Part shown: positions 15,056 to 31,165 of the stretch, piece after piece | How the letters are laid out: each line of letters begins with the position of its first letter | Numbering within the stretch: the first letter of the stretch is position 1 | Assembly: GCA_029552545.1 (NCBI GenBank) | Contig: JAKPDO010000047.1 | Location: forward strand, 62,001-126,000 | DNA: 64,000 bases | Source of the DNA: Planctomycetota bacterium | GTDB taxonomy: Bacteria; Planctomycetota; Phycisphaerae; Sedimentisphaerales; Anaerohalosphaeraceae | Direction of reading: 5' to 3' | Made by a program: the position numbers and the translations under genes | The notes under the pieces: model-generated | What the model was told of the DNA's origin: nothing | Databases searched by the model: none | The model's input: only the letters and a program-made list of their open reading frames with translations

Positions 15056-16342
15056 TTATAGCAGATTCCACGGCGAACGCATCGGCCGAAACCGCAGACG
15101 GTTGGCCTGTTCATCGCCGACAAATTCTTCTTTCACCGGGTCCCATCGCAGAGGCCGGCCTAACCGGACGGCAATATTCCCCATATGACATATCGAGGCC
15201 GTCCGATGCCCGATTTCAGCCGGCGCCGCCGTCGTTTTCCGGCTCCGGATGCACTCCAGAAAATTGCGGCGGTGATCACGGCTATAATACAGCTGAATCG
15301 GCTCTTTGCCAACAGCAGATTTTACAAGATGTTCCGGCTCTGAGTAGAGTCGTTCGCGGCTGACAAAAATTTTGCCCCGGCTTCCCTCAAAGGCAACGCT
15401 TCCGGTTCCGGCGCCTGTTCGGCAGAACAGCTGAACACCATCCGCATAGGTAAAAACCAAATCATAAAACAGCGCTGTGTCGAACAGCCCCTCTTTGGGG
15501 AACTCCCCCCTTCCTTCCACCCAGACCGGCCCGGTAAGGTCTGTCCCGTGTCCCCACTGGGCAATGTCAATCTGATGAGACCCCCAATTGGTCAGCTGTC
15601 CGCCGGAATAATCAGAAATAAAGCGGAAGGTGTAGTGGCACCGCTGCGGGGTATAAGGTGCCCACGGGGCCGGCCCAAGCCAGAGGTCATAATCCAGCTC
15701 CGGCGGAACAGGTTCCGGGCTCCACTGCGGCGGACAGGTGCGATTATTCGGAGGAATCTCGACATAAATTTTTTTCAAATCTCCAATCCGTCCGTTTCGT
15801 ACGAGCTGACAGGCCCGATGAAAATAAACATCTGACCGCTGGTGAGAACCTATTTGAAAAACCCGTCCGTATCGCTGAACCGCATCGCAAAGAACCCGCC
15901 CTTCGGCAATCGTCAGGGTCAGCGGTTTTTCACAATAGACGTCCTTTCCAGCTCGGACGGCCGCCAGGGCCATCGGCACATGCCAGTGGTCAGGGGTGGA
16001 AATAACGACGGCATCGATGTCCTCCCGGGCCAGCAGTTCGCGGAAATCCGTTGTGCCGCAGGAAGCATCCAGCCCGGCTTCCGCAAGGCCCTCCTGAAGA
16101 TGACGGCGGTCGGCATCACAGACGGCGGCAACCTGTACACCCGGCTGGTTCAGGAATCCCCGCAGATTGCCCATCCCCATCCCGCCGACTCCGATAAAGC
16201 CCAGCGTGATGCGGTTGGACGGCGCCGTCCTGCCGAAAAGAGACGCAGTTGCAATCCAGGGAAACCCCAGCGCAGAGACCCCTGCGCCCTTCAGGAAGGA
16301 ACGCCGGCTGAATGAATTCGACTGGTACGATACATTCACCAT
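15056..16342 (-). CDS. Tat-exported Gfo/Idh/MocA oxidoreductase
   Basis: A 428-residue dehydrogenase-fold protein. A twin-arginine signal (FSRRSFLKGAGVSALGF, residues about 12-28) precedes the NAD(P)-binding motif GFIGVGGMGMGN, the catalytic-type motif YCEKPLT and the C-domain motif GGQLTNWGSHQIDIAQWG. Family enzymes oxidise or reduce sugars and cyclitols with a bound nicotinamide. Export by Tat implies that the cofactor is inserted before export, as in glucose-fructose oxidoreductase. The start codon has no strong ribosome site. It follows the MFS gene by 9 bases and ends 18 bases before the lipoprotein gene. Confidence 0.9.
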   Translation of the reverse strand: MVNVSYQSNSFSRRSFLKGAGVSALGFPWIATASLFGRTAPSNRITLGFIGVGGMGMGNLRGFLNQPGVQVAAVCDADRRHLQEGLAEAGLDASCGTTDFRELLAREDIDAVVISTPDHWHVPMALAAVRAGKDVYCEKPLTLTIAEGRVLCDAVQRYGRVFQIGSHQRSDVYFHRACQLVRNGRIGDLKKIYVEIPPNNRTCPPQWSPEPVPPELDYDLWLGPAPWAPYTPQRCHYTFRFISDYSGGQLTNWGSHQIDIAQWGHGTDLTGPVWVEGRGEFPKEGLFDTALFYDLVFTYADGVQLFCRTGAGTGSVAFEGSRGKIFVSRERLYSEPEHLVKSAVGKEPIQLYYSRDHRRNFLECIRSRKTTAAPAEIGHRTASICHMGNIAVRLGRPLRWDPVKEEFVGDEQANRLRFRPMRSPWNLL

Positions 16343-16351
16343 CGAAAATGC

Positions 16352-17539
16352 TTACAGACTGCCCTTGACCTTGGAAAGAACGAGGGCCAGGATAATCAAG
16401 ACGATGCAGACAGGCAGCAGCAGTTTCAGACTTTTCTGAATGGAGGCGCCTTTGGCCATATTGCCCATCGCTTTGGGAACAATCACGGCGCCGGCCAGCC
16501 CCACCGCAAAGATGATGCCGAACAGACTGCCGTGGATGTCCGACGAAAACTTCGAAAAACTTACCCCAACCGTCGTCGGAAAACACGGAGCAAACGCCAG
16601 CCCGGCCAGGGCCGCCAGAAGCCGCGCATGGAGCGATTGGACACACTGCATCATCAGAAAGATGGCGATTGCCGCAACAAGGGCGGCGGCGGCAATGACC
16701 CACCCGCCGTTGGCCGTCAGATCAAAACCGATTCGAGCAGGCAGAAGCCCCGTTGCCAAACGGCCGGCCATCATCGCAATAGCAAAAATGGATAAAAGCT
16801 GCTGGCCGAACGCATCGGCGGCCGCGGCTTCAACGGAGGCGTTTTCCTTTTGGATAACCTCCTTGCCGAAGGTGGGAAGCCAGTTGCAGAAAGAGGCCTC
16901 CAGAGCGATATAGCAAAACAGAACAAAAGCGGCCGTTAAAACCGCCGGCTGGCCGAGCAGTTTTACCGCCGCCGCTATATCCAGTTTGGCACTGCTGGCC
17001 GGATATCCCTTGGCCGCCAGTGCAATCAGCACCGGAAGCAGAACAATCACGCCGAGTACAGACACGGCCTTTTCATATCCGGCGGTTCGAAACAGGAAAC
17101 TGACAATCAGCGGCGTCAGAAAAAGCCCCAGGCCGAAAAAGACATTGGCCAGATTGCTGGCCGCGGCTGGGTCCTTGCCGTCAAAAAGCACCTGCGGCGC
17201 CATCACATTGCCTGCTGTATTCAGGGCCATCGCCCCAAATCCCAGCAGCAGACACGGCCAGAGAACGGCGGTATAGGTTTTCCCAAAGGCCAGGATAAAA
17301 ATGCACGCCGCTGTCAGAACAAACCCGAGCACCGCAATCCACTGATAACCGATGGCATCCGTTACCACGCCGACCACCAGCGAAGCCACCAGACAGGCAA
17401 ACATGAATCCCGAAATCAGAGTGCCGAATTTGCCTGCATCCATCTGGACCCGCGGCATCAGTTTGACGCTGATCGACCCCAGCAGCGAAAAGCACATTCC
17501 TAATCCGAATACACAGCACAAAGCAACCGCCTGGACCAT
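16352..17539 (-). CDS. MFS transporter
   Basis: A 395-residue protein with 12 predicted helices and no signal peptide, of the major facilitator superfamily. The halves split around residues 190-230. Sequence features such as GSISVKLMPRVQMDAGKFGTL resemble fucose/glucose-type permeases (FGHS-like), but I cannot assign a substrate. The ATG follows AAGGAGG by 6 bases. It lies 11 bases after the cytochrome-b-like membrane gene and 9 bases before an exported oxidoreductase gene, so it may import the sugar product released outside the inner membrane. Confidence 0.85.
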   Translation of the reverse strand: MVQAVALCCVFGLGMCFSLLGSISVKLMPRVQMDAGKFGTLISGFMFACLVASLVVGVVTDAIGYQWIAVLGFVLTAACIFILAFGKTYTAVLWPCLLLGFGAMALNTAGNVMAPQVLFDGKDPAAASNLANVFFGLGLFLTPLIVSFLFRTAGYEKAVSVLGVIVLLPVLIALAAKGYPASSAKLDIAAAVKLLGQPAVLTAAFVLFCYIALEASFCNWLPTFGKEVIQKENASVEAAAADAFGQQLLSIFAIAMMAGRLATGLLPARIGFDLTANGGWVIAAAALVAAIAIFLMMQCVQSLHARLLAALAGLAFAPCFPTTVGVSFSKFSSDIHGSLFGIIFAVGLAGAVIVPKAMGNMAKGASIQKSLKLLLPVCIVLIILALVLSKVKGSL

Positions 17540-29975: not shown

Positions 29976-29992
29976 AGGTCCGCTCTCCTGTC

Positions 29993-31165
29993 CTATTTCT
30001 TAAACGGGGTCCATTTTTGTTTGCTTTTCGCACTGGCCAGAAGCGTATCCAAAAACAGCATTCCGCGAAGTCCGTCATGTACATCCGGGAAATCCAGGGC
30101 CAACGGGTCCGGTTTTCGTCCTTCCATTCTGGCTCGGATTGTATCCGCAAAGTTGCAGTAAATATTGGCAAAGGCCTCGATAAAGGCCTCCGGATGCCCA
30201 AACGGAAGGCGTGTCGCCCGGGCAGCGGCGGGACTGTAGGCGGCTACATAGTCATTGCCCCGCTTCCAGACCTGCATCGGCTTGCCCATCGGCTTGACAT
30301 ACAGATAGTTGGGATGCTCCTGATGCCATTCGAGTCCGCCCTTCTCGCCATAAATCCAGATAGCCAGGTTATTTTCCTCGCCGACGGAAATCTGGCTGGC
30401 ATGCAAAACCCCTTTGGCACCATTGTTAAATTTCACCAGACAGTTGACGTCATCATCCAGTTTCCGACCTTTCACAAAGGTTGTCAATTCTGCACACAAA
30501 TGGGTCATTTTCAGACCCGTAATGTATTCCGAAAGATTTTCGGCATGAGTTCCGATGTCGCCGCCGCAGCCGCTTCCGCCGCTCTGCTTGGGGTCAGTAC
30601 GCCAAGAGGCTTGCTGCTGACCTGTTCTCTCCAGTGCCGTGGCCAGCCAGCCCTGCGGATATTGCACAATAATCTTACGTATTTTGCCCAGTTCGCCGTT
30701 TTTAACCATATCCCGGGCCAGTTTGACCATCGGATAGCCGGTATAGTTGTGCATCAGGCCGAAAACCCGCTTGGTCTTTTGAACAATCTGAACCAGACTA
30801 CGGGCCTCCTGAACCGAAATCGTCATCGGCTTTTCGCACATCACATGAAAACCGGCCTCCAGCAGATCGCGAGCAATAGGATAATGCCAATTGTTGGGTG
30901 TGGTAACTGCCACAAAATCCATCCGCTCCCCCTCCGGCCGCTTCAGCTCCTGCTCGATCATCTCCTGATAGCAACTGTAGCAGCGATTGGGGTCTAAATA
31001 GAGCACTTTGCTCATTTGCTTGGATTTTTCAGGATTGATATCAAACGCTCCACCCACCAATTCGATTTGACCATCCATTCTGGCCGCCTTGCGATGAACC
31101 TCCCCGATGAATGCTCCCGGTCCCCCGCCGACCATTCCCATCCTGAGCTTTCTGCCGAGCACCAT
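29993..31165 (-). CDS. Cytoplasmic Gfo/Idh/MocA oxidoreductase
   Basis: A 390-residue dehydrogenase with no signal peptide, the only such copy here. Nucleotide motif GMVGGGPGAFIGEVH, EKP motif MCEKPMTISV and C-domain GGSGCGGDIGTHAENLSEY place it in the branch with cytoplasmic sugar and inositol dehydrogenases. ATG at 31165 is chosen because AAAGGAG lies 5 bases upstream. It is the first gene of the leftward run toward 26306. With the barrel at 28980-29975 it probably oxidises or reduces an imported keto-sugar using soluble NAD(P). Confidence 0.9.
   Translation of the reverse strand: MVLGRKLRMGMVGGGPGAFIGEVHRKAARMDGQIELVGGAFDINPEKSKQMSKVLYLDPNRCYSCYQEMIEQELKRPEGERMDFVAVTTPNNWHYPIARDLLEAGFHVMCEKPMTISVQEARSLVQIVQKTKRVFGLMHNYTGYPMVKLARDMVKNGELGKIRKIIVQYPQGWLATALERTGQQQASWRTDPKQSGGSGCGGDIGTHAENLSEYITGLKMTHLCAELTTFVKGRKLDDDVNCLVKFNNGAKGVLHASQISVGEENNLAIWIYGEKGGLEWHQEHPNYLYVKPMGKPMQVWKRGNDYVAAYSPAAARATRLPFGHPEAFIEAFANIYCNFADTIRARMEGRKPDPLALDFPDVHDGLRGMLFLDTLLASAKSKQKWTPFKK

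Follow-up and report, generated by a model that had tools for sequence, protein, structure and literature searches.

The oxidative, non-hydrolytic cleavage of glycans is a recently recognised route. A 3-keto glycoside pathway of the BT2156–BT2160 type was reportedly worked out in Bacteroides by Nasseri in 2024 (Nature 631:199), and a gene run with some of the same ingredients lies in the 64,000-nucleotide stretch of DNA from a Planctomycetota bacterium analysed here (contig JAKPDO010000047.1, positions 62,001 to 126,000 of the forward strand; the window). Like the Bacteroides pathway, this locus encodes a BT2158-like exported dehydrogenase, DUF1080, TIM-barrel proteins and enzymes of the Gfo/Idh/MocA family (Gfo enzymes). 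In contrast to that pathway, it has TIM barrel and DUF1080 in one chain and several exported Gfo paralogues, and it adds a c-type cytochrome with seven CXXCH motifs (heptahaem), a predicted cytochrome b, a discoidin protein, an Agl23-like membrane protein and an ApbE family protein. These additions, along with the exported-type dehydrogenase GfoB encoded beside them, are the main concern of this report.

Glucose-fructose oxidoreductase, which is exported by the twin-arginine translocation (Tat) route and is not known to have a cytochrome partner, shares the Gfo/Idh/MocA fold with GfoB, which carries a Tat motif of its own; the two are 19–21% identical in fold alignments. LacA is an FAD enzyme, and the catalytic subunit of LacABC-type FAD glucoside 3-dehydrogenases is a GMC flavoprotein; no GMC domain occurs among the Pfam matches of the region's proteins. 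In their accessible portions, one paper describes periplasmic C3 oxidation by the Caulobacter lactose 3-dehydrogenase LacABC followed by a DUF1080 protein (PMC9007349), and another names a mono-haem cytochrome c as the acceptor of an FAD glucoside 3-dehydrogenase (PMC9915066). As far as these portions go, LacABC is like the present locus in pairing C3 oxidation outside the cytoplasm with a DUF1080 protein, but LacABC-type systems combine a flavoenzyme with a mono-haem partner where the locus has a nicotinamide-type Gfo and a seven-CXXCH, membrane-anchored cytochrome. The Agrobacterium AtOGE operon comprises four enzymes with a flavoenzyme as oxidant and follows a similar order of oxidation, β-elimination by a TIM barrel, hydration and reduction by a Gfo enzyme; it differs in that the pathway section of the paper, in its accessible part, contains no multihaem cytochrome or ApbE (PMC10628242).

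Flavinylation-associated membrane cytochromes resemble the locus in that an apbE gene cluster includes a small membrane cytochrome. The families named in the accessible part of that work are PepSY, MsrQ, DUF4405, FezC and Nqr/Rnf, and the words “Gfo” and “discoidin” are absent from its main text (PMC11334425). Similarly, the accessible passages of PMC11323493 on flavinylation and multihaem proteins concern Nuo, Rnf, Nqr and outer-membrane cytochromes, with no “MocA”. Among the matches listed in a search of open-access titles and abstract starts, which a family name written with slashes may escape, there was no Gfo–multihaem or Agl23–ApbE–discoidin module, and the open-access literature examined is silent on the fate of the electrons that exported nicotinamide-type dehydrogenases release.

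A conserved dehydrogenase–cytochrome core

Six genes make up the core of the locus (all genes of the run lie on the minus strand; coordinates are those of the window): GfoB (P0006, 20008–21396, probable start 21372), the heptahaem cytochrome cytC (P0005, 18153–20066, probable start 19988 from the length of P0016), cytB, an integral membrane protein and predicted cytochrome b (P0003, 17551–18156), an F5/8-type (discoidin) protein with a lipoprotein-like N-terminus (14258–15037; PF22633, 33.9 bits, cut-off 27.8), an Agl23-like membrane protein (12681–14261; TIGR03663, 163.9 bits, cut-off 126.25) and a protein of the ApbE (FAD:protein FMN transferase) family (11806–12684; PF02424, 153.5 bits, cut-off 25.6). 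In relatives, the fixed core consists of GfoB, the seven-CXXCH cytochrome and the predicted cytochrome b, mostly accompanied by discoidin, Agl23 and ApbE.

A scan of GTDB genomes returned 293 cytochrome-encoding loci; the analysis used the best 80 of these, so divergent members are under-sampled. In 75 of the 80 the cytochrome gene is immediately preceded by GfoB; where at least 1.2 kb of sequence is available upstream, this is so in 70 of 71 loci, and the sole miss (L102) contains a 114-bit piece of GfoB. The cytB gene is adjacent or fused to the cytochrome gene in 74 of the 80, and in five of the 80 the two form one natural chain; it was not found in L052, L054, L063, L068 and L091, whose contigs end soon past the cytochrome, or in L080, where there is room for it. 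Discoidin, Agl23 and ApbE, searched with the window's own proteins as phmmer queries, which may miss diverged copies, and counted in all loci including those cut by contig ends, are present in 54, 50 and 48 of the 80. Of the 36 loci flanked by 8 kb on either side, 28 have all six core genes. By the titles of their records, which are metagenome bins, the 80 loci belong to Planctomycetota, Verrucomicrobiota, Caldithrix/Calditrichota, KSB1, Omnitrophota, Bacteroidetes with Stygiobacter, one Deferribacteres bin and one unplaced bacterium, seven phyla in all, and in 18 loci from outside Planctomycetota GfoB is 49–62% identical to the window copy.

A separate search of 40 relatives found the cytochrome in 25, and it is 91% identical in a bin of the same genus (G004, L041). 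Nineteen loci were fetched around the cytochrome in relatives, some of them from genomes also represented among the 80; GfoB is upstream in 18, close by in all of these but L037, where the distance is about 1 kb. The exception, L036, comes from G026, in which a single contig carries both genes, the cytochrome at 1.00 Mb and GfoB (797.6 bits) at 3.16 Mb. Among 248 genomes sampled from the class (thresholds of E 1e-30 for the cytochrome and 1e-90 for GfoB), the cytochrome is present in 55 and GfoB in 58, with both in 51, the cytochrome only in four (G092, G149, G166, G187), GfoB only in seven (G011, G018, G048, G162, G235, G250, G261) and neither in 186 (Fisher p 3e-40, kinship of the genomes uncorrected). 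The pairing of GfoB with the cytochrome thus outlasts the loss of linkage in some genomes. Loci of five of the seven GfoB-only genomes were examined. In G235, an eight-CXXCH, non-orthologous cytochrome lies between GfoB and ApbE (L123:7480–11043) and no heptahaem match exceeds the threshold, an apparent replacement of the heptahaem partner. In G011, G250 and G261, GfoB has discoidin, Agl23 and ApbE in its vicinity and no heptahaem cytochrome, while G018 has GfoB along with TIM-DUF1080 and BT2158-like genes and no other core genes in the stretch examined. Agl23 and discoidin are found near the cytochrome in two of the cytochrome-only loci (L125, L127).

The closest relatives have the full gene set of the locus and more distant ones have parts of it, so that the idea put forward in a preliminary description of the locus does not fall through absence of the set from relatives. 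That description had placed the border of the locus at 15056. Intergenic gaps of at most 24 bp, or overlaps, run from 31180 down to 11806, where the next gap is 215 bp; the unit therefore crosses this border and is a run of about 19 kb with 15 same-strand genes, the three past 15056 being those for the discoidin lipoprotein-like protein, the Agl23-like protein and ApbE.

Properties of the core proteins

P0005 contains seven CXXCH motifs, multihaem Pfam domains and a predicted C-terminal membrane helix. Seven CXXCH motifs are present in 75 of 81 aligned rows, and eight further histidines in 80–81 of the 81. The six exceptions are a gene split over two frames (L094), a row with an X (L068) and four cytochromes (L089, L097, L108, L115) whose first haem motif has the form CX3CH or CX4CH, with its histidine kept. 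The heptahaem protein has no sequence relative in the PDB at E 0.001, and a Foldseek search with a model of the fused cytochrome (mean pLDDT 79.4, no haems) gave no match at E 0.001 or better. The window's genome encodes a protein for cytochrome c assembly (PF01578, 91.7 bits). Of the “cytochromes” of the preliminary description, P0003, which has no family match above cut-off, is a cytochrome b by prediction only. The prediction draws on two conserved histidines, H98 in 69 of 70 rows and H168 in 70 of 70, and on a predicted structure whose membrane part may resemble FdnI, CybB and HyaC.

GfoB has the Gfo/Idh/MocA fold by fold comparison, with glucose-fructose oxidoreductase among its structural neighbours, and carries the twin-arginine motif NRREFV. 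The Gfo catalytic residues are intact, K150, D259 and H263 being kept in 72, 74 and 76 of 76 rows. No GfoB relatives were found on plasmids at 1e-60. In ApbE, the D-A-x-S-T-A segment is well kept (D248 in 48, S251 in 45 and T252 in 48 of 49 rows); the protein scores 46 bits against the NCBI equivalog NF007774, below the cut-off of 498, and a second ApbE is encoded elsewhere in the genome.

The Agl23-like protein and ApbE form one open reading frame in eight loci, for example L043:7652–10231. In L096, a family 2 glycosyltransferase gene (16941–17732, minus strand) is convergent to the Agl23–ApbE end, and a family of reading frames on the glycosyltransferase strand, alike by eye, is found near the same place in 27 of the 80 loci. 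This arrangement is a hint that the Agl23-like protein uses a lipid-linked sugar.

Genes for a probable oxidative glycoside cleavage

The preliminary description proposed oxidative rather than hydrolytic cleavage, pointing out that no ordinary glycoside hydrolase is encoded; indeed, no glycoside hydrolase family appears among the Pfam matches of the region's proteins. Homology favours the proposal. P0008 (22802–24199), a BT2158-like, Tat-motif candidate glycoside 3-dehydrogenase, aligns over most of its length to NF058561, the equivalog of the BT_2158 glycoside 3-dehydrogenase, at 602.5 bits. Its best PDB relatives by far are 8tdf and 8tdh (8tdf_A, 441.5 bits, residues 38–461 aligned); in the 8tdf alignment the lysine of YVQKPLT and the histidine of GDMACH coincide, so that the Gfo lysine and histidine are kept. 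Adjoining it is P0007 (21393–22895, probable start 22799), a TIM barrel–DUF1080 fusion and predicted 3-keto-glycoside lyase/hydratase, in which PF06439 (130.9 bits, cut-off 26.8) and PF01261 (63.7 bits, cut-off 31.1) share one chain. Its PDB relatives are 3p6l and 3imm, the TIM barrel being closest to 3p6l, and H189, N190, H191, D219, H222, H245 and E283, putative metal-site residues and their neighbours, are invariant (40 of 40 rows).

Oxidation at C3, elimination, hydration and reduction are the likely chemistry of the locus because of the analogy with the four-step pathways in the accessible parts of PMC10628242 and PMC9007349. The BT2158-like and other exported Gfo enzymes would oxidise C3 of the sugar outside the cytoplasm, and the TIM-DUF1080 fusion would eliminate the aglycone and hydrate the glycal. 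The product would then be brought into the cell by the MFS carrier (P0002, 16352–17539; PF07690) and completed by reduction or isomerisation by two cytoplasmic enzymes, the Gfo/Idh/MocA oxidoreductase P0013 (29993–31180, ATG start probably 31165; PF01408, PF22725 and PF02894) and the xylose-isomerase-like TIM barrel P0012 (28980–29975; PF01261, 145 bits). The observations of the preliminary description are confirmed; its interpretation is partly supported, with oxidative cleavage a plausible idea.

A proposed electron outlet for exported sugar oxidation

We favour, at a probability of about 0.5, the reading that the locus cleaves glycosides extracytoplasmically by oxidise–eliminate–hydrate chemistry and that the conserved core of GfoB, heptahaem cytochrome, predicted cytochrome b, discoidin, Agl23-like protein and ApbE is the electron outlet for the oxidation. 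The hydride from the sugar would go to the nicotinamide of GfoB. The presence of ApbE in the core suggests that a covalently bound flavin links nicotinamide and haem; installed by ApbE on some carrier protein, it would act as the switch from two-electron to one-electron transfer. Electrons would pass from the flavin through the haem chain to cytochrome b and then across the membrane or to an external acceptor; if they reached the cytoplasm, they would make up for the electrons spent on reducing an imported keto-sugar. A more specific version, which we put forward tentatively and regard as possible though doubtful, has the Tat-exported, nicotinamide-type Gfo wired through the ApbE-installed flavin to the heptahaem cytochrome and cytochrome b, with electrons crossing the membrane without a quinone pool, so that keto-sugar import is redox-balanced. 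What is new is the conserved GfoB–cytochrome–ApbE module, to which sequence lends a putative function; as a GfoB–heptahaem–cytochrome b–ApbE set found in planctomycetes, verrucomicrobia and bins of other phyla, it offers a concrete and testable answer to the question of electron fate. If the proposal is true, the nicotinamide–flavin–haem chain would be an electron path without known precedent, and the module would link glycan breakdown with extracytosolic electron transfer.

Several observations weigh against this proposal. We know of no precedent for transfer from NADH to haem. P0003 has no match above cut-off in Pfam or NCBIfam (Mpo1-like, 19.7 of 24 bits), and a crude scan of ten proteins of the unit for an ApbE-type target motif of the kind D..(T/S)(G/S)A(T/S) gave no match. 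P0008 misses the 750-bit cut-off of NF058561, as do its relatives in L052 (621.5 bits), L107 (533.4) and L116 (514.3). The set also comes apart: one or more core genes are missing from eight of the 36 full-context loci (L051, L055, L089, L090, L102, L106, L113, L115), GfoB, discoidin, Agl23 and ApbE occur without the heptahaem cytochrome in L124, L133 and L134, and in all four cytochrome-only genomes (L125–L128) cytB comes next after the cytochrome with no GfoB in the stretch examined. Moreover, among the 47 loci with 8 kb upstream, GfoB is present in 46, BT2158-like genes in 30 and DUF1080 in 29, and the nine Verrucomicrobiota loci, some of them short, have DUF1080 in none and BT2158-like genes in four. 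The module is therefore not tied to 3-keto cleavage everywhere, and in Verrucomicrobiota it may serve other sugar oxidations.

Three other explanations were weighed. Exported Gfo enzymes could keep their NAD(P) and be reset by reducing a keto-sugar outside the cell, a redox-neutral cycle in which the cytochromes serve something else. This is in line with glucose-fructose oxidoreductase being among the structural neighbours of GfoB and with five exported Gfo paralogues lying together, and it requires no external acceptor. It leaves unexplained, however, why GfoB lies beside the cytochrome in nearly every locus with room for it, why the two co-occur when unlinked and why G235 has a different multihaem cytochrome beside GfoB, and we consider it unlikely. 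Cycling of the glucose-fructose oxidoreductase type was accordingly set back as a full explanation, GfoB–cytochrome linkage being unaccounted for. The preliminary description, which had treated the cytochromes as extras and offered no electron outlet beyond this precedent, has to be revised here, GfoB and the cytochrome being the most fixed part of the locus.

Alternatively, the core could be a quinone-linked sugar dehydrogenase complex on the model of formate dehydrogenase N, with menaquinone accepting electrons from the predicted cytochrome b. The two families marking the two menaquinone routes, the only ones tested, are absent from the window's genome (99.97% complete), and this reading was set back from the lead after these empty searches. 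A UbiA homologue is present and is non-diagnostic, with matches in all 14 controls too. Since the marker families are also missing from 26 of the 55 cytochrome-bearing genomes, quinone from these two routes cannot be general; we regard the quinone-linked complex as improbable, and their absence makes a quinone pool a less likely destination for the electrons than the far side of the membrane or an external acceptor. Finally, Gfo enzymes are reversible, which counts in favour of a flow in the opposite direction, with the cytochromes carrying electrons outward and GfoB reducing a keto-sugar or other periplasmic compound; flavinylation-linked membrane cytochromes are indeed described, in the accessible part of PMC11334425, as serving extracytosolic redox activities. 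Against such a flow, the neighbouring exported enzymes are of the dehydrogenase and keto-glycoside type and would release electrons outside, leaving it the least probable of the explanations considered.

Other genes of the run and its surroundings

The span 15056–31180 holds twelve genes, and the gene list of the preliminary description (five Tat-motif and one cytoplasmic Gfo, TIM-DUF1080, TIM barrel, MFS and HEAT) held up in coordinates, strand and Pfam matches. PF01408 is matched above cut-off by all six Gfo/Idh/MocA dehydrogenases in it. The genome (3.09 Mb) has 14 such matches, and the clustering of six of them in 16 kb is not due to chance because only 0.07 would be expected there (Poisson 2e-10). 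Besides GfoB and P0008, the Tat-motif enzymes are GfoA (P0001, 15056–16342), GfoD (P0010, 26306–27700, probable start 27628) and GfoE (P0011, 27642–28955), all three of the PF19051 type. Export of all five is predicted from the twin-arginine motifs near their N-termini, SRRSFL, SRRDFL, SRREFL and NRRDFL in addition to that of GfoB; the Pfam Tat model matches P0001 only, below cut-off. No twin-arginine motif was found in P0013, whose best NCBIfam match is levoglucosan dehydrogenase (116.5 bits, cut-off 650).

P0009 (24221–26299; PF13646, HEAT_2) is a HEAT-repeat protein that is predicted to be exported, and its relatives in L096 and L134, the two checked, have an added ThuA domain (PF06283). 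The position of the MFS carrier is taken in some relatives by another type of carrier, as in L124:5539–6951, which has weak cytosine/allantoin permease matches and no Pfam match.

Two further Gfo/Idh/MocA matches lie on the same contig just past the window's end (G000:C58:127981–129756), at least one of them with an RR motif. Beyond the 215-bp gap that ends the run, 8263–11590 encodes a sodium:solute symporter and what looks like a GHMP-type sugar kinase, perhaps for sugar uptake and phosphorylation. Further along, at 1890–5586, two ammonium-transporter-like genes and a P-II-like gene were recognised by eye from their translations.

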